64,000 nt of DNA, taken from NCBI GenBank assembly GCA_017962495.1, contig JAGCVH010000009.1:25137-89136 (forward strand), given 5' to 3'. The notes below the pieces were generated by a model. It was given only the letters and a program-made list of their open reading frames with translations. It did not search any database and was not told the DNA's origin. How positions within the stretch are numbered: the first letter of the stretch is position 1; every line of letters begins with the position of its first letter. The position numbers were made by a program, and so were the translations under genes. The DNA comes from Bacteroidaceae bacterium (GTDB lineage Bacteria > Bacteroidota > Bacteroidia > Bacteroidales > Bacteroidaceae). Below, in pieces: positions 20,580 through 64,000 of this stretch.

Positions 20580-20652
<73 letters not shown>

Positions 20653-23833: not shown

Positions 23834-24469
23834 ATGAAGTGGGGTGTCCTGATGCTTATGCTATTTGTTTTAAGTTCTGCGTCTGCGCAGACACCCGACA
23901 CATGCTTCATAGCCAACCCCATTCCCGATAGCATATTCACGCGGATGCAAGGCCGAAGCTACAAGGAAGGTTGCCCTATCCGTCGTAGTGATTTGCGCTA
24001 CCTACGCCTTTCGCACCACGATGCCGAAGGGAAAACAAGGGTAGGGGAAATGGTTTGCAATAAGGCCATCGCCCAAGATCTGATAGACATCTTTCGAGAA
24101 TTGTGGAAAGCCGGTTATCGCATCGAACGCATGCAACTCATCGACGAATACGACGGCGATGACCAACGTTCGATGGAGGCTAATAACACTTCTTGTTTCA
24201 ACTACCGAACCATTGCTGGCTCGTCCACTATTTCCAAGCACGGCAAAGGGATGGCCATAGACATTAATCCGCTTTATAACCCATATGTCAAAGGAAACCG
24301 GGTAGAGCCAAAAACGGGACGCAAGTGGGCATTCAGGCGTGGGCAAAGGAAAGACATCCCATACAAGATTGACCACAACGATCTCTGTTATAAGCTTTTC
24401 CAAAAGCACGGATTCCGATGGGGAGGCAATTGGCGGTATAGTAAGGACTATCAACATTTTGAACGATGA
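23834..24469 (+). CDS. Exported M15-family peptidase (VanY/Peptidase_M15_4 type)
   Basis: A probable periplasmic DD/LD-carboxypeptidase-like enzyme acting on peptidoglycan peptides. Signal peptide: MKWGVLMLMLFVLSSASAQ. Zinc and catalytic motifs: SKHGKGMAIDINPLYNP (SxHxxGxAxD pattern, near 138-150) and the distal W-x-x-KDYQHFE carrying the last histidine. Length is 211. It follows the transferase by 10 bp and its stop overlaps the next start (ATGA). Confidence 0.9.
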   Translation: MKWGVLMLMLFVLSSASAQTPDTCFIANPIPDSIFTRMQGRSYKEGCPIRRSDLRYLRLSHHDAEGKTRVGEMVCNKAIAQDLIDIFRELWKAGYRIERMQLIDEYDGDDQRSMEANNTSCFNYRTIAGSSTISKHGKGMAIDINPLYNPYVKGNRVEPKTGRKWAFRRGQRKDIPYKIDHNDLCYKLFQKHGFRWGGNWRYSKDYQHFER

Positions 24470-25545
24470 CAGACAAAGAGCTTTTCTTCGAACTCCTAAG
24501 GGCTTCGCTCGGAAGGCCTAAGGCCTTCACGCGGAAGACCTCAGGTGCGGAATGGGAAGACCTATATTCCGAAGCCCGAAGGCAAAGCGTCATCGGCGTG
24601 TGTCTGCAAGCCATACAGAAGGACGACGGGAAGTGGGGAGAAGAGAACGGATTGCCCATCGACCTGAAACTTAAGTGGATAGGAAAAGCGGAGAAGATTG
24701 CCGACGAAAACAAAAAGCTCAATCAGCAATGCCGTCAACTAACGGAGAAACTAACACGTAGTGGCTACTGGAACTGCATACTGAAAGGACAAGGTATAGC
24801 TATGCTTTACCCACACCCCGAATGGAGGCAAAGCGGAGACATCGATATCTGGGTGGGAGGCGGACGAAAGCGCGTAGTTGAGATGACGCGCAAAGTCACA
24901 AATCGGAAGGAGGAAGTAACCTATCACCACACCGACTTCCGCGTCTTCGATGATACATCCGTAGAGGTACATTTCACGCCAACATGGATGTTTAATCCCT
25001 TTACTAACCGACGTCTGCAACGATGGATGGAAGAGCACAAAGGCATCAGGGAAGGGAATGGGTTCCCTTGTCCAACAATCCAGTTCGACGTTCTCTTTAT
25101 CCTCATACACATCTATCGACACATCTTCGACGAAGGCGTGGGCTTGCGGCAAATCATCGATTACTATTATGTGCTAAAAGCCTACAACGAGCTGGGCGGA
25201 GGAGACTTTTCTAATACGCTTAAATCCCTGAACCTGAGCAAGTTTGCACAAGGACTCATGTGGATATTAACGGAGAAATTGGATATGCCCGTCGAATGGA
25301 TGATAGCCAAAGCTGACAGGAGGGTGGGAGAGTGGCTCTTGAGAGAGGTGGAGGAAGCAGGAAACTTCGGCCATTTCGACAAACGCAACGAGGGCATTTA
25401 CCACAATAGTCCACGCCTTAAACGGCTATGGTGGAGAATCAAGCGCAGCAGTGAGCGCATCACATACTTCCCAGAAGAAGCCCTTTGGGAAATGCCTTGG
25501 AGAACATGGCACTATCTGTGGAGAATGAAGAATGGTTATTTGTAA
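24466..25545 (+). CDS. Nucleotidyltransferase-fold protein (NTP_transf_5 type)
   Basis: A 359-residue cytoplasmic protein with the minimal nucleotidyltransferase core LKGQGIAMLYPHPEWRQSGDIDIWVGG (about 105-131), which provides the GDID metal-binding pair, and a third acidic residue probably in DDTSVEVHFTP. This is the pattern of the uncharacterised nucleotidyltransferase family often found near capsule or peptide-modification genes. The substrate is unknown. It overlaps the peptidase gene by 4 bp and lies 20 bp before glnN. Confidence 0.8.
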   Translation: MTDKELFFELLRASLGRPKAFTRKTSGAEWEDLYSEARRQSVIGVCLQAIQKDDGKWGEENGLPIDLKLKWIGKAEKIADENKKLNQQCRQLTEKLTRSGYWNCILKGQGIAMLYPHPEWRQSGDIDIWVGGGRKRVVEMTRKVTNRKEEVTYHHTDFRVFDDTSVEVHFTPTWMFNPFTNRRLQRWMEEHKGIREGNGFPCPTIQFDVLFILIHIYRHIFDEGVGLRQIIDYYYVLKAYNELGGGDFSNTLKSLNLSKFAQGLMWILTEKLDMPVEWMIAKADRRVGEWLLREVEEAGNFGHFDKRNEGIYHNSPRLKRLWWRIKRSSERITYFPEEALWEMPWRTWHYLWRMKNGYL

Positions 25546-47072: not shown

Positions 47073-47215
47073 CCCTTAGGGGTTAATCCAGAACCCTTAG
47101 GGGTTATCGCAAAAGGCCTAGGTTCAATGACGAATGAACTTAGGTTTGATGATTAGTGAACATAGGCTCGATGGGAAACAAACAAAGGTTCGATGGAGAA
47201 AGGCCTTAAGGCTAA
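47073..47215. repeat. Degenerate 22-bp repeat array (reverse-orientation relative of 58.6 kb array)
   Basis: Seven [TC][TA]AGG-type cores start at 47076, 47097, 47118, 47140, 47162, 47184 and 47207, i.e. spaced 21-23 bp, with partly conserved GGTTCGATG arms. The reverse complement matches the GAATCGAACCTAAGG unit of the 58.6-kb array. The first two units are perfect ACCCTTAGGGGTT palindrome-like copies. Confidence 0.65.
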
Positions 47216-47235
47216 AGTAAAATCGAGATTATAAT

Positions 47236-47300
47236 CGTCAAATTGTTCAATTGTTCAATTGTTCAATTGTTCAATTGTCAAATCGTCAAATTGTCAAATC
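47236..47300. repeat. TTGTTCAA short tandem repeat
   Basis: Repeated AATTGTTC / AATTGTC units (period 9) in the gap before the 3' end of the DEAD-box gene. No coding potential. Confidence 0.8.
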
Positions 47301-56016: not shown

Positions 56017-57354
56017 ATGAGAAAGAAATACTTACTCTTAATCTCGATATGCTTATCCGCACTTTCTGTCACTGGGCAAGAAAGGTGGACTTTGCGCCAA
56101 TGCATCGACTATGCGCTGGAGAACAATATCCAGATACGCAAAAGCCGCGTAAGTGAGGAACTGGGAGAAGTAAGCCTGAAGCAAGACAAGGCTGCACTTT
56201 TACCCAGTCTTTCATTTGCCACAAGCCAGAGTGTCGGTTATCGTCCCTTCGAGGAAAACACGGCTATCGTGCAGAACGGTCAGGTTACAAACACCTCGAA
56301 AAAGGTGACGGAGTCTGGTTCGTATGGGTTAAACGCCAGTTGGACACTATGGAACGGAGGCATAAACCAAAAGAATATTGAAGCACAAAAGTTGCAAAAC
56401 CAAATCACAGAATTGGGTACCCAGCAGAGCGAACAGAGCCTGCAGGAACAGATAGCCCAGCTATACGTGCAGATCCTTTATAGCACTGAGGCCAAGAAAG
56501 TGAACGAGCAACTTGCACAAACGGCTAAGAAGCAGTACGAACGCGGACAAGAGATGCAGCGCCAAGGCCAGATGTCGAAAGCCGACGTGGCTCAGTTGGA
56601 AGCACAATGGAAGAGTGCCGAGTTCGATATTGTCAGCACGGAAACCCAGATACAGAACTACAAGAGGCAGTTGAAGGCCTTGTTGGAGTTAGACATTTCT
56701 TCGCCTTTCGATGTTGCAGGGAATGTGCCAAGCGACGAGCAGGTGCTGTCCCCCATCCCATCGGCTCAAAGCATCTACGAGCAAGCGCTTGCCACGCGTC
56801 CTGAAATACGTAGTGCCGAGTTGAGCATCGATGCGGCGAACATGAATATTGATATCGCACGTCGAGGCTATTATCCCAACATCGGTTTGAGCGCAAGCGC
56901 AGGCGACAGCCACTATAGCGCCAGTCCGAACGGAGTGGGCAAGCAGATGAAGCAGAACGTGAACTTGAGTGGTGGTGTGAACGTGAGTGTCCCCATCTTC
57001 GACAACCGCCGAAACAGAAGCGCTGTAGAGCAGGCGAAGCTGCAGAAACTGAACAGCGAACTCGACTTGCAGGACAAGAAGAACGCACTCTCAAGCACGA
57101 TTGAGAACTATTGGTTGAACGCCAACAGCTATCAGCAACGCTTCCTCTCGGCAAAGGCAAAGGTGGAGAGTGCCGAAACAAGTTACGAGCTGCTCGACGC
57201 CCAATTCCGCAACGGACTGAAGAACATCGTGGAACTGCGCCAAGGCTATGACAACCTCATCAGCGCCAAGCAAGACGTGTTGCAGAGCAAGTACATGACC
57301 CTGCTCAATATGCAGTTGCTGAAGTTCTACGGAGGAGACATCATCGACATGTAA
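56017..57354 (+). CDS. TolC-like outer-membrane efflux protein
   Basis: Outer-membrane channel of a tripartite exporter. Signal peptide MRKKYLLLISICLSALSVTGQ; two OEP repeats of long helical hairpins (about 25-210 and 230-440). TLRQCIDYALENNIQIRKSR opens the first repeat, and YELLDAQFRNGLKNIVELRQGYDNLISAKQDVLQSKY ends the second. Length is 445. It is the first gene of OEP-adaptor-ATPase-permease, with a strong promoter. Confidence 0.94.
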   Translation: MRKKYLLLISICLSALSVTGQERWTLRQCIDYALENNIQIRKSRVSEELGEVSLKQDKAALLPSLSFATSQSVGYRPFEENTAIVQNGQVTNTSKKVTESGSYGLNASWTLWNGGINQKNIEAQKLQNQITELGTQQSEQSLQEQIAQLYVQILYSTEAKKVNEQLAQTAKKQYERGQEMQRQGQMSKADVAQLEAQWKSAEFDIVSTETQIQNYKRQLKALLELDISSPFDVAGNVPSDEQVLSPIPSAQSIYEQALATRPEIRSAELSIDAANMNIDIARRGYYPNIGLSASAGDSHYSASPNGVGKQMKQNVNLSGGVNVSVPIFDNRRNRSAVEQAKLQKLNSELDLQDKKNALSSTIENYWLNANSYQQRFLSAKAKVESAETSYELLDAQFRNGLKNIVELRQGYDNLISAKQDVLQSKYMTLLNMQLLKFYGGDIIDM

Positions 57355-57393: not shown

Positions 57394-58557
57394 ATGAAAA
57401 GGCTATTCTTTGTAGCGCTTGCAGGGCTTCTGATGGTTGGTTGCAAGCCAAAGGCAGAATTCAAGTACACCACAGCGAAAGTGGAAAAGCAAAACGTGAC
57501 CACAAGCGTTACGGCTACTGGCACCATAGAACCCGTCACAAGTGTGGACGTTGGTACGCAGGTGAGCGGTATCGTGAGCAAGTTGTATGTCGACTACAAT
57601 AGCGTGGTGAAGGCAGGACAAGTGATTGCCGAGCTCGACCGCACCAATCTGCTTAGCGACTTGGCAAGTGCTCAGGCCAACTTGCGCAGTTCCCAGAGTG
57701 ACCTCGATTACCAGAAGGCCAATTATGAACGATACAAGAACCTCTTCGACCAAGGGCTCATCAGCGCCAACGATTACGACCAGGCCCGCCTGAGCTATGT
57801 TCGCGCACAGCAAACAGTTGCACAACAACGTGAGAGCGTAAGGCGTGCAACGACCAACCTTGGTTATGCGACCATCACCAGCCCTATTGATGGCGTCGTC
57901 CTCTCGAAGGAGGTGGAAGAGGGACAAACCGTTGCATCAAGCTTCAACACGCCTACCCTGTTCAAGATTGCTCAGGACCTGACCAACATGCGTGTAATTG
58001 CGGATGTCGACGAAGCTGATATAGGCGAAGTGAAGGAAGGCCAGCGAGTGACCTTCACCGTAGATGCTTTCCCCAACGACATATTCGAGGGGTCTGTCAC
58101 ACAAGTGCGCCAGCAGGCAACCACAGAAAGTAATGTTGTCACTTACGAGGTAGTCATCAGTGCGCCAAACAACGACCTGAAGCTGAAGCCAGGCTTGACG
58201 GCTAACGTCACCATCTTCACCCTCGAACTCCACGACGTGCTTGCAGTACCCTCCAAAGCCTTGCGTTTCAGACCTAACGAGGCTATGCTCAACGAAGGGG
58301 AAACCATTACCGACGTCGAAGGCCGTGAGAAGTTGTGGGTGAAAGAAGGGACGAACATCAAGGCAATAGCCGTGGAGACAGGAATGACTAACGGCACGCT
58401 CACGCAGATTACTCGCGGTGGAAAGGAAGGCCTTGAGGTGCTGACCGACGTACAAGGCGGCGAGGAGCCTGAATTGGAACAGGCTTCAGGCGGAAGCCCC
58501 TTCATGCCGCAACGCAGAAACAGGAACGCAGCAAACAACAGGCCAAGGAATAATTGA
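57394..58557 (+). CDS. MacA-like periplasmic adaptor (membrane-fusion protein)
   Basis: Links the MacB-type transporter to the TolC-like channel. Lipoprotein signal MKRLFFVALAGLLMVGC (Cys17). Barrel-sandwich hybrid with TSVDVGTQVSGIVSKLYVDYNSVVKAGQVIAELD (about 48-81), alpha-helical hairpin (88-155), second half TSPIDGVVLSKEVEEGQTV, beta-barrel and membrane-proximal domains. The tail GGSPFMPQRRNRNAANNRPRNN is a basic, low-complexity extension. The 22-bp repeat array begins immediately at its stop codon. Confidence 0.93.
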   Translation: MKRLFFVALAGLLMVGCKPKAEFKYTTAKVEKQNVTTSVTATGTIEPVTSVDVGTQVSGIVSKLYVDYNSVVKAGQVIAELDRTNLLSDLASAQANLRSSQSDLDYQKANYERYKNLFDQGLISANDYDQARLSYVRAQQTVAQQRESVRRATTNLGYATITSPIDGVVLSKEVEEGQTVASSFNTPTLFKIAQDLTNMRVIADVDEADIGEVKEGQRVTFTVDAFPNDIFEGSVTQVRQQATTESNVVTYEVVISAPNNDLKLKPGLTANVTIFTLELHDVLAVPSKALRFRPNEAMLNEGETITDVEGREKLWVKEGTNIKAIAVETGMTNGTLTQITRGGKEGLEVLTDVQGGEEPELEQASGGSPFMPQRRNRNAANNRPRNN

Positions 58558-58758
58558 TAAGACTTAGGCCTTCGTGAATAAGCCATAGGCGTTCGGAAAT
58601 AAGGCCTAAGGTACAAAAGAATCGAACCTAAGGCGCAAAAGAATCGAACCTAAGGTGCAAATGAATCGAACCTAAGGTGCAAACGAATAAGACCTAAGGT
58701 GCAAACAAATCGAACCTAAGGTGCAAATGAATAAGACCTAAGTGTCATTGGAATAAGA
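58556..58758 (+). repeat. 22-bp tandem repeat array in efflux operon
   Basis: Nine units with cores (CCTAAGG or variants) starting at 58562, 58583, 58605, 58627, 58649, 58671, 58693, 58715 and 58737, exactly 22 bp apart except the first step of 21. The unit is GAATCGAACCTAAGGTGCAA plus two bases; some units carry GAATAAGACC instead. The three outermost units are the most diverged. It fills the whole 205-bp gap and has no spacers, so it is not a CRISPR. The period is not a multiple of 3. Confidence 0.95.
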
Positions 58759-58762
58759 ATTA

Positions 58763-59521
58763 ATGATGGCTGACAAAGAAAGGAAAGTGGTTATAGAACT
58801 GCAGGACGTGAGACGCGACTTTCACGTAGGCAGTGAAATCGTCAAAGCCTTGCGCGGAGTGAGTTTTAAGATTCATGAAGGCGAGTTCGTAACCATTATG
58901 GGTACGTCAGGTTCGGGCAAGTCAACGCTGTTGAACCAGCTTGGATGTCTCGACACGCCTACGAGTGGCGAATACATTCTGGACGGAGTGCCTGTAAGGA
59001 AAATGCGCCGACGCGAAAGAGCCGTATTGCGCAATCGCAAGATAGGATTCATCTTCCAGAACTACAACCTGCTCGCAAAGACGACGGCTGTGGAGAATGT
59101 GGAACTTCCACTTATGTACAACAGTGCTTACTCGGCCAAGCAACGCCGCGAGGCCGCTATCGAGGCACTGAAATCTGTTGGACTTGGCGACCGCCTCGAA
59201 CACAGGTCGAACCAGATGTCCGGTGGTCAGATGCAACGTGTGGCTATTGCTCGTGCTCTGGTCAACAATCCTGCTGTCATCCTGGCCGACGAAGCAACGG
59301 GTAACCTGGACACACGCACAAGTTTCGAAATACTTGTCCTCTTCCAAGAACTCCATCGTCAGGGACGCACCATCATCTTCGTCACCCACAACCCCGATAT
59401 TGCCCAATACAGCAGTCGCAATATCATGTTGCGCGACGGAAAGATTTGCAGCGACGTTGAGAATGACAACATACTGAATGCAGCAGATGCCCTTGCCGCT
59501 CTGCCCAAACAAGACGACTAA
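58763..59521 (+). CDS. MacB-type ABC transporter ATP-binding protein
   Basis: The ATPase half of a mechanotransmission (LolD/MacB-like) ABC exporter. Walker A GTSGSGKST (near 48-56), Q-loop FIFQNYNLLAKTTAVEN, signature SGGQMQRV, Walker B AVILADEATGNLD, H-loop FVTHN. Length is 252. The ATPase and permease are separate polypeptides, unlike E. coli MacB. An ATG at 58766 is an alternative start. It follows the tandem array by a few bases, which may affect its translation. Confidence 0.95.
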   Translation: MMADKERKVVIELQDVRRDFHVGSEIVKALRGVSFKIHEGEFVTIMGTSGSGKSTLLNQLGCLDTPTSGEYILDGVPVRKMRRRERAVLRNRKIGFIFQNYNLLAKTTAVENVELPLMYNSAYSAKQRREAAIEALKSVGLGDRLEHRSNQMSGGQMQRVAIARALVNNPAVILADEATGNLDTRTSFEILVLFQELHRQGRTIIFVTHNPDIAQYSSRNIMLRDGKICSDVENDNILNAADALAALPKQDD

Positions 59522-59530
59522 GACACACAA

Positions 59531-60751
59531 ATGAACCTAACCAATCTATTAAAGGTGGCCATAACGGCCATCATGAGCAATAAGTCGAGAACCCTGCTTT
59601 CCACGTTGGGTATCATTATAGGTGTGGCAGCTGTCATCACTATGATGGCCATCGGACAAGGTTCGAAGGAAAGCATCAGAAAAGACCTCTCGAAGATGGG
59701 AACAAACTTGCTCACCATCCGACCTGGAGGAGAGATGCGTGGTGGTGTCAGGCTCGACCCGTCGGCCATGCAGACGCTGAAGATGGCAGACTACGAAGCC
59801 ATACAGCAAGAGGCAAAGCTCATCACCCATGTAAGCCCAGAAGTGACTGCCGCCGGACAAGTTATCTATGGTGCCAAGAACACCAATACGACGGTCTATG
59901 GCGAGAGTCCCGAGTACCTCAACATTAAGCTCTGGGAGATTAAGGACGGATTCTGCTTCACGGAGGAAGACATCAAAAAGAGCTCAAAGGTTTGCGTCGT
60001 TGGAACCACAGTAGTGGAAGAACTCTTTGGCGACAAGAACTATGATGCCGTAGGCAAGACCATTCGCTTCAAAAGCATTCCGTTCCGCATCATCGGCATA
60101 CTGAAGTCGAAGGGCTACAACTCTTGGGGTATGGACCAGGACAACGTGATGATTGCCCCCTACACCACCGTGATGAAGCGCATTGCCGCACAGACGTACT
60201 TCAACAGCATTGTCGTTAGTGCCTTGCGAGAGGAATTAAGCGATGATGCCATCGACGAACTGACAGCCATCCTGCGCAGGAATCACAAGATTAAGGAAGA
60301 AGACGACAACGACTTCACCATACGTTCTCAACAGGAGATGATGGAGACGATGTCGAGTACCATGACCACCCTGCAGACCGTGCTTGTGGTAGCAGCAGCC
60401 TTCTCACTATTGGTAGCAGGCATCGGCATCATGAATATCATGCTGGTTAGCGTTACGGAACGCACGAAGGAGATAGGCCTTCGCATGTCGGTAGGCGCAA
60501 GAGGCATCGACATCAGTAGGCAGTTCCTGCTCGAGAGTATCATGATTAGCCTCTCCGGAGGCGTCATCGGCGTAGGTCTCGGATACTTATTCACCTGGGG
60601 AGCACAAGCTATCGGCTTCCCTGCCACCGTTCCCCTGTGGAGCGTGTTGGTAAGTTTCGGAGTCTGCGCACTTATAGGCCTCGTGTTTGGCTATCTGCCT
60701 GCCCACAAGGCAGCAACGATGGACCCCATCGAAGCCCTACGTTACGAATAA
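59531..60751 (+). CDS. MacB-type ABC transporter permease (FtsX fold)
   Basis: Inner-membrane permease of 406 residues. One N-terminal helix (MSNKSRTLLSTLGIIIGVAAVITMMAIG), a large periplasmic MacB core domain (about 45-270), then three helices (near 285, 335, 365) of the FtsX family with the coupling segment RTKEIGLRMSVGAR. The end LPAHKAATMDPIEALRYE is the classic MacB terminus. It starts 9 bp after the ATPase gene. The exported substrate (peptide, lipid or antibiotic) is unknown. Confidence 0.95.
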   Translation: MNLTNLLKVAITAIMSNKSRTLLSTLGIIIGVAAVITMMAIGQGSKESIRKDLSKMGTNLLTIRPGGEMRGGVRLDPSAMQTLKMADYEAIQQEAKLITHVSPEVTAAGQVIYGAKNTNTTVYGESPEYLNIKLWEIKDGFCFTEEDIKKSSKVCVVGTTVVEELFGDKNYDAVGKTIRFKSIPFRIIGILKSKGYNSWGMDQDNVMIAPYTTVMKRIAAQTYFNSIVVSALREELSDDAIDELTAILRRNHKIKEEDDNDFTIRSQQEMMETMSSTMTTLQTVLVVAAAFSLLVAGIGIMNIMLVSVTERTKEIGLRMSVGARGIDISRQFLLESIMISLSGGVIGVGLGYLFTWGAQAIGFPATVPLWSVLVSFGVCALIGLVFGYLPAHKAATMDPIEALRYE

Positions 60752-63176: not shown

Positions 63177-63944
63177 ATGACTAATCAAGATATCATACAA
63201 CCCGAAAACCTCGTTTACAAGAAACCACGCCTGCTCAACGACAACCCCATGCACTACTGCCCGGGGTGCAGCCACAGCGTGGTGCATAAACTTATTGCAG
63301 AAATCATCGACGAGATGGGTCTCGAAGAAAAAACCATAGGCATCTCCCCCGTTGGATGTGCCGTATTTGCCTACAACTATATCGACATCGATTGGATAGA
63401 GGCGGCTCACGGAAGAGCTCCTGCCGTAGCTTGTGCTGCCAAACGCCTATGGCCTGGCCATCTGGTATTTACCTATCAAGGCGATGGCGACCTGGCTTGC
63501 ATAGGAACGGCAGAAACCATTCACGCCCTGAATCGTGGCGACAACATCGTCATCATCTTTGTCAACAACGCCATATACGGAATGACGGGAGGCCAGATGG
63601 CTCCTACCACGCTGATGGGAATGAAGACGAGCACCTGCCCCTACGGACGCCAAGCCGACTTGCACGGATTCCCCTTGAAGATTACCGAGATAGCAGCCAC
63701 CCTCGAAGGCACTTGCTTCGTCACTCGGCAGGCTGTAAGCAAAGTGGCTTACATCCGTCGCACTAAGGCGGCTCTGCGCAAGGCTTTCGAGTATTCCTTG
63801 CAAGGCAAGGGCAGCAGTCTTGTCGAGATTGTAAGTACATGCAGTTCGGGATGGAAGATGACGCCTGAGGAGGCCAACGAATGGATGGAAGACCGCATGT
63901 TTGGATACTATCATCTGGGAGACCTGAAGGACGTGAAGAGTTGA
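63177..63944 (+). CDS. vorA: 2-oxoacid:ferredoxin oxidoreductase beta subunit (thiamine diphosphate)
   Basis: Thiamine-diphosphate-binding subunit, 255 aa. Cys-containing HYCPGCSHSVVHKLIAE near 27, GISPVGCAVFAYNYIDIDWIEAAHGRAPAVACAAKR, and the TPP/Mg motif GDGDLACIGTAETIHALNRGDNIVIIFVNNAIYGMTGGQMAPTT (about 102-145). It follows the small membrane protein by 6 bp. A gamma subunit is expected beyond the window end. The symbol is by gene order and is tentative. Confidence 0.92.
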   Translation: MTNQDIIQPENLVYKKPRLLNDNPMHYCPGCSHSVVHKLIAEIIDEMGLEEKTIGISPVGCAVFAYNYIDIDWIEAAHGRAPAVACAAKRLWPGHLVFTYQGDGDLACIGTAETIHALNRGDNIVIIFVNNAIYGMTGGQMAPTTLMGMKTSTCPYGRQADLHGFPLKITEIAATLEGTCFVTRQAVSKVAYIRRTKAALRKAFEYSLQGKGSSLVEIVSTCSSGWKMTPEEANEWMEDRMFGYYHLGDLKDVKS

Positions 63945-63945
63945 T

Positions 63946-64000
63946 AGATAATAGTTAATAGTTTAGAGATAATAGTTAATAGTTTAGAGATAATAGTTAA
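63946..64000 (+). repeat. 21-bp AT-rich tandem repeat at window end
   Basis: AGATAATAGTTAATAGTTTA plus G repeated at 63946-63966 and 63967-63987, with a partial third copy reaching the window end. The unit itself contains TAATAGTT sub-repeats. No coding potential. Confidence 0.9.

Follow-up and report, generated by a model that had tools for sequence, protein, structure and literature searches.

The window, by which we mean the whole 64,000-nucleotide stretch of DNA that was analysed, carries the plus-strand open reading frames (ORFs) of an exporter: a TolC-type outer-membrane efflux ORF of 445 aa (56017..57354; Pfam OEP), a HlyD/MacA-type adaptor of 387 aa (57394..58557; HlyD_D23 and HlyD_3), a MacB-type ABC ATPase of 252 aa (58763..59521; ABC_tran) and a MacB-type permease of 406 aa (59531..60751; MacB_PCD and FtsX). 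These assignments, obtained from ORF calls and Pfam, agree with the MacAB-TolC-type setting given in a preliminary description of this DNA, which had also reported a nine-unit array of about 22 bp between the adaptor and ATPase genes. The array is indeed there (58551..58747; no strand assigned), and fills the gap that starts at the adaptor stop (58557) and ends at the ATG of the ATPase (58763). Its first unit overlaps the last few adaptor codons by a few bases, and the lag-22 similarity continues to 58758.

The units are built around CCTNAGG-type cores at 58562, 58583, 58605, 58627, 58649, 58671, 58693, 58715 and 58737, so that the first step is 21 bp and the following seven are 22 bp each. 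The centre (58605..58721; no strand assigned) holds six intact CCTAAGG cores spaced exactly 22 bp apart, and degenerate cores are found at the first (ACTTAGG), second (CCATAGG) and last (CCTAAGT) positions. Self-identity of the 205-bp spacer is 0.694 at lag 22, compared to 0.424 at the next-best lag between 5 and 40 and to a maximum of 0.408, at any of those lags, over 1000 dinucleotide shuffles; TRF also recovers the array, with a best score of 206. The earlier statement that most units differ by 0-4 bases holds up reasonably well for units 4-8, which show 1-5 pairwise differences, but not for the outer units: units 1 and 2 differ from units 4-8 at 13-15 positions, and units 3 and 9 at 4-10. 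The two unit flavours that had been described are present, and both turn out to be members of a half-site vocabulary that is used across the sampled arrays (see below).

The Bacteroidota-type promoter consensus includes TTTG. Since the plus strand of the spacer is without TTTG, a promoter of this type is unlikely there, and the array, lying as it does within an operon, is probably transcribed.

A dispersed family of phased units

The array in the exporter operon is one member of a genome-wide family. In the genome of the window (G000, a draft of 104 contigs that is 85% complete), the pattern CCTNAGG-N15-CCTNAGG occurs 140 times exactly and 196 times when one mismatch is allowed, with 0 and 4 matches, respectively, for the reversed control. 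A sister species, the uncultured Bacteroidales RUG14659 (G078; record set CADCHQ; 94% complete), has 149 exact matches, again with a reversed control of 0. Of the genomes searched, the two related species alone reach this density of roughly 140-150 exact copies. Among 139 genomes of the genus a match is found in 23, and the 137 genomes other than G000 and G078 hold few or none (0-16: G314 has 16, G416 15, G339 9, G423 7, G381 6 and the remaining genomes with matches 1-4). In a 301-genome draw of the family, 24 genomes have at least one exact match; the 22 besides the two dense ones have 1-5, to be read beside the reversed control, which by itself reaches 10 in one genome of that draw. The preliminary description had suggested a search for the unit in relatives, and would have taken its absence from all related strains, together with no effect on transcript or protein levels, as the mark of a random minisatellite; G078 has both the 149 exact pairs and an orthologue of the exporter array. 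More generally, all eight G000 loci with an orthologue in G078 tiles that were not selected for arrays have an array there as well, as asked in the direction from G000 to G078. A BLAST search with the array against plasmid and phage collections gave no match; the three-core pattern is matched in 14 viral contigs, with arms that differ as judged by eye. The family is apparently undescribed: literature searches, with most subscription papers beyond their coverage, found no description of such a 22-bp repeat family.

The anatomy of the unit was derived from 56 G000 stretches around arrays together with the window, in which the detector found 60 G000 arrays; four G078 stretches run through the same detector contained five arrays. 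Across 257 cores, conservation per core position is 0.92-0.98, values that are partly a product of selection, as a core was accepted only if it had no more than one mismatch. In 87% of these cores the middle base is A or T, and the flanks are mirrored on the two sides out to about position 8, with positions 9-11 free. The frequencies of the left and right 5-base arms (top 20; 60 arrays found by their cores) correlate at 0.84, and a common vocabulary of CCTTC, TGCAA, TCTTC, TTCGA, CCTTA, TCTTA and others serves both sides. Spacings of up to 100 bp between exact cores were counted over 400 kb of G078 that had not been picked for arrays. Of 78 such spacings, 28 are 22 bp, 20 are 44 bp, 14 are 66 bp and 9 are 88 bp, 71 in all, and seven have other lengths. 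The arrays thus present a dyad-symmetric site profile repeated at close to a whole number of helical turns, as in a phased binding array. We claim this symmetry for the CCTNAGG family alone; when a consensus test for dyad symmetry was applied to 22-bp arrays in general, it was significant in only some of them. The middle base also drifts along the G000 arrays, T being favoured on the left and A on the right, with a score reached in none of 2000 permutations. Many of the outermost cores of G000 arrays differ at the outer base.

Two more arrays of this kind lie in the window, each without an assigned strand. A second CCTNAGG array, with three cores (24495..24545), falls within the 5' part of a 360-aa ORF (24466-25545) and is read in frame there; the true gene start may be further down. 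A related 22-bp array recovered by TRF (47119..47201) is of the TTCGA / ACATAGG flavour; elsewhere, units with CCTATGT/ACATAGG cores share arrays and register with CCTNAGG units. Sister-flavour units of the TCGAACCTATGTTCGA type were noticed in this array (window 47119-47201) and at loci L184, L177 and L212, with half-sites that are seemingly one base closer together. Array units are also in frame within a 415-aa ORF that looks methyltransferase-like by eye (L211; G078:C1:19148-20392), and the array in this ORF aligns without gaps between G000 and G078.

With respect to gene context, simple longest-ORF calls placed 56 arrays between two called neighbours, 23 of them convergent, 29 tandem and 4 divergent. 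For comparison, the G078 tiles together with the window contain 206 gaps of at least 30 bp, of which 32 lie between convergent genes and 35 between divergent ones, so that arrays are in excess between convergent genes (Fisher P 1.4e-4; for divergent genes, P 0.089). The tile sample, again with the window, contains 16 clusters, three inside ORFs and 13 in gaps (4 convergent, 8 tandem and 1 divergent), and 4 of 13 is too small a sample to show a clear excess. An all-against-all comparison of the 282 ORFs in the 56 array stretches found no neighbour family shared by more than two stretches; a mobile-gene neighbour was ruled out in this way, the comparison having returned pairs of loci only. Avoidance of a restriction site was likewise discarded, given CCTNAGG frequencies per 100 kb of 29.8 in G078 and 21.3 in G339 against 24.4 expected.

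Divergence between the two array-rich species

Nineteen orthologous arrays were tried for alignment between G000 and G078 and 18 were aligned, the exception being L201, for which one flank matched about 57 kb away. Changes are unevenly distributed over the unit: 28 of 497 core positions (5.6%) differ, as do 24 of 82 at N (29%), 60 of 328 at arm positions 4-5 (18%), 47 of 483 at arm positions 6-8 (9.7%) and 108 of 424 at the hinge, positions 9-11 (25.5%). Divergence is therefore lower at the core and at arm positions 6-8 than at the hinge, although core conservation is inflated by the origin of 11 of the 18 G078 copies, which had been picked up by scanning for three exact cores. The seven pairs from tiles, not selected for arrays in G078, show a similar profile, with changes at 15 of 198 core positions (7.6%), 5 of 33 at N (15%), 18 of 131 at arm positions 4-5 (14%), 14 of 197 at arm positions 6-8 (7.1%) and 36 of 170 at the hinge (21%). 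Bootstrap ratios in this subset are 0.11-0.59 for arm 6-8 over hinge and 0.24-0.94 for core over N, so that without the 11 core-selected pairs the core/N contrast lies only just below 1. The dyad-symmetric pattern of constraint is thus seen in the 18 pairs and also in the seven unselected ones, only just so for core against N. The contrast is weak in the three gap-free pairs (core 4/72, N 2/12, hinge 6/64). At 53 of 101 aligned core places both species have an intact core; at 18 one of them does, and at 30 neither does. Arrays also differ in length between the species, by 22, 44 and 66 bp among other sizes. To judge by these alignments, the divergence pattern looks as if a symmetric protein reads the array.

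Possible dimer sites or a minisatellite

A symmetric site, mirrored divergence and phasing at two turns are what stacked dimers would need, and we tentatively read the CCTNAGG arrays as a dispersed, inherited, lineage-specific family of phased dimer-site arrays for a putative DNA-binding protein, acting at the DNA level. Each unit would be a dyad-symmetric site of about 17 bp, composed of a half-site arm, CCT, N, AGG and a second half-site arm. The 22-bp period, about two helical turns, would place the dyads roughly on one face of the DNA; a dimer of the putative sequence-specific protein would bind each unit, and the array would let the dimers stack. Arrays are passed on vertically, and their length changes are largely of whole units. 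They may act near gene ends, on chromosome organisation, supercoiling or transcript ends, and would not serve to switch the exporter operon. Among the suggestions in the preliminary description, a phased protein-binding array fits the mirrored half-sites and the mirrored interspecies constraint best, whereas an element dedicated to the exporter operon finds no support, since the family lies near unrelated genes throughout the genome. ArgR boxes, plasmid iterons and partition sites likewise consist of sites about two helical turns apart to which stacked proteins bind, and arrays of the ArgR or iteron type are limited to a single gene set or replicon, at one locus or a few loci. The CCTNAGG arrays differ in that they occupy tens of loci near unrelated genes and have several half-site flavours. 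Such a variety of flavours in one genome is unusual for a single regulator and counts against dimer sites, as does the T-to-A drift of the middle base. If the protein were found, Bacteroidales would provide a clear example of a chromosome-binding repeat that is both genome-wide and lineage-specific, and G000 and G078 could naturally be compared with their array-poor relatives.

Copying that depends on the core, in the absence of any host function, would account for many of the same observations, and it could mimic constraint. For this reason the dimer-site reading stays a little below an even chance, and a neutral or selfish minisatellite is nearly as likely. In the latter case the units would multiply by replication slippage or unequal exchange and spread through copying that requires the core, and would bring the host no benefit. 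VNTR minisatellites consist of head-to-tail units and change by whole units in copy number; the near-identical neighbouring units and the 22-bp steps in length between G000 and G078 speak for such a minisatellite. The patchy distribution of the family (dense in 2 of 139 genus genomes), the numerous degenerate cores and the arrays inside ORFs also agree with a minisatellite. As a dispersed family with a common core and position-specific interspecies divergence, however, the CCTNAGG arrays depart from VNTRs, and plain slippage would be expected to produce neither a half-site vocabulary common to both sides nor a mirrored, position-specific constraint, which for arm 6-8 against hinge is seen in the unselected subset too. 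If no protein were found, the family would provide a good example of a core-keeping minisatellite spreading through intergenic space, operons included.

The ATPase is matched at E 1e-90 in 60 of 61 genus genomes, the window's own counted, and the macAB junction was examined in the closest 29 of the 59 relatives with a match. The exporter-type array is present at the junction in none of these 29; with the family spread through the genome and absent from this junction in these relatives, a regulator specific to the operon was rejected. The distance from the adaptor stop to the VIEL codons of the ATPase, 232 bp in the window, is 23 bp in 9 of the 29 relatives, 17-74 bp in 20, and up to 353 bp in the rest. 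With the genes of the operon often nearly touching in relatives, the exporter array looks like an addition in the G000/G078 lineage. Compared with the nine-unit window array, the orthologous array in G078 has 12 units, among them four identical neighbouring ones. Other tandem repeats or longer spacers occupy the gap in L227 (heptamers), L231, L236 and L244; it is as if the junction tolerated repeats, and the presence of other repeats such as the L227 heptamers is a further point for the minisatellite.

A period of 22 bp is itself common in the genus. Among intergenic fixed-period repeats of 15-30 bp, the period is exactly 22 bp in 13 of 15 cases in G078, 6 of 8 in G339 and 9 of 16 in ten other genus genomes, compared to 1 of 4 in 20 genomes of other genera. 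The units of these 22-bp arrays in genus mates are very different from each other, and the recurrence of the period with such different units again suits a minisatellite. Scanned for three cores, the genome collection yielded at least 104 stretches, many of them unrelated repeats; among the matches listed are Candidatus Spyradenecus faecavium, a Kiritimatiellaeota bin and RUG12190, with several arrays each and arms of their own. The CCTNAGG arrays of these distant gut bacteria may or may not be kin, as the pattern they share is itself the query. It is conceivable, if unlikely, that the many exactly 22-bp-phased families of this gut Bacteroidales genus, with their lineage-specific units, and the arrays with other arms that recur in distant gut bacteria are all lattices for a fast-evolving, lineage-varying DNA-binding protein of the architectural type. 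They would then correspond, in bacteria, to satellite DNA and the proteins that bind it.

Mobile elements, RNA and other tandem repeats

In their distribution the arrays are best described as REP-like; they lack REP tags, and no RAYT gene was detected in G000 or G078. One source (PMC3733652) describes REPs as short, high-copy, interspersed and species-specific, often downstream of coding regions and sometimes inside genes, and reports CGTC REPs, without a dedicated transposase, in Bacteroidetes among others; the CCTNAGG arrays resemble the REPs and BIMEs of that description in being short, high-copy, interspersed, species-specific and dyad-like, and in lying between genes at gene 3' ends, with some in genes. 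The convergent-gene excess fits an element of the REP/BIME or MITE type that a RAYT or another transposase would mobilise, and so does RUG12190 (G353), whose arrays use another arm set and which has six matches to PF01797, five of them over the cut-off. Such an element is nevertheless distinctly improbable. The arrays differ from REPs and BIMEs by their 22-bp head-to-tail phasing, and among 316 units the tags are rare (GTAG 4, CTAC 4, CGTC 12, GACG 12). A stem-loop with complementary arms was not seen, the pairing being at the null level overall, and no ORF family recurred beyond two of the 56 array stretches compared. A search for RAYTs (Y1_Tnp, HUH tyrosine transposase; PF01797 at E 0.001) in 13 handles, which represent 11 distinct genomes (G314 = G356; G339 = G354), found none in G000, 85% complete, or in G078, 94% complete. 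On tag, hairpin and RAYT alike, membership among REPs and BIMEs fails.

The in-frame arrays inside ORFs recall another group of repeats, the Rickettsia palindromic elements (RPEs), which are found between genes and also, in frame, within protein genes. Each RPE is a single stem-loop palindrome of greater length, and the CCTNAGG arrays differ from them as 22-bp lattices.

An RNA element in the transcript (a 3'-end stabiliser, an attenuator or the control of the expression ratio of exporter genes that the preliminary description had entertained) is less probable still. Stop codons closely precede many arrays, the exporter array is probably transcribed, and the folding of whole arrays is stronger than that of dinucleotide shuffles (mean z -2.7, n=60; 40 of 60 below -2). 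This folding, however, looks like a by-product of the repeated CCTNAGG. Against versions with randomly flipped units, 43 of the 48 arrays that have four or more cores show no folding advantage (mean z +1.61), and unit order has no effect in arrays of this size (mean z -0.24); unit orientation accordingly does not favour folding, and a long hairpin formed by the whole array, an idea prompted by the T-to-A drift, was ruled out by the flips. Nor do the arms covary as pairs overall. Watson-Crick plus GU pairing across the core is at z -0.16 against shuffles for the five arm positions together, with values above shuffles at positions 4 (z 5.0) and 6 (z 3.9) and below at position 5 (z -4.6). Fully complementary 5-base arms are rarer than expected, both across the core (0.8% vs 4.1%) and across the spacer (0.6% vs 5.6%). 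Arm pairing that does not exceed shuffles and the rarity of perfect palindromes argue against hairpins, and ratio control through RNA is left unsupported. An Rfam search of the window gave only a tRNA (20580-20652) over threshold, with no match in the array.

Chance or an assembly artefact has a negligible probability: G000 is a draft in 104 contigs, 85% complete, but the orthologous 12-unit array in the separate assembly of G078 refutes an artefact, the reversed control gives 0 matches and the periodicity is not reached in 1000 shuffles.

Tandem repeats of other kinds were also observed. In G078, G339 and ten genus mates (L295-L334), intergenic tandem repeats show two peaks in period, one at exactly 22 bp and one at 7 bp, with many unrelated units. 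The window itself contains an 8-bp tandem repeat with the units AATTGTTC/AATCGTCA (47233-47300) and, at its end, a 7/21-bp tandem repeat of AGTTAAT (63933-64000).
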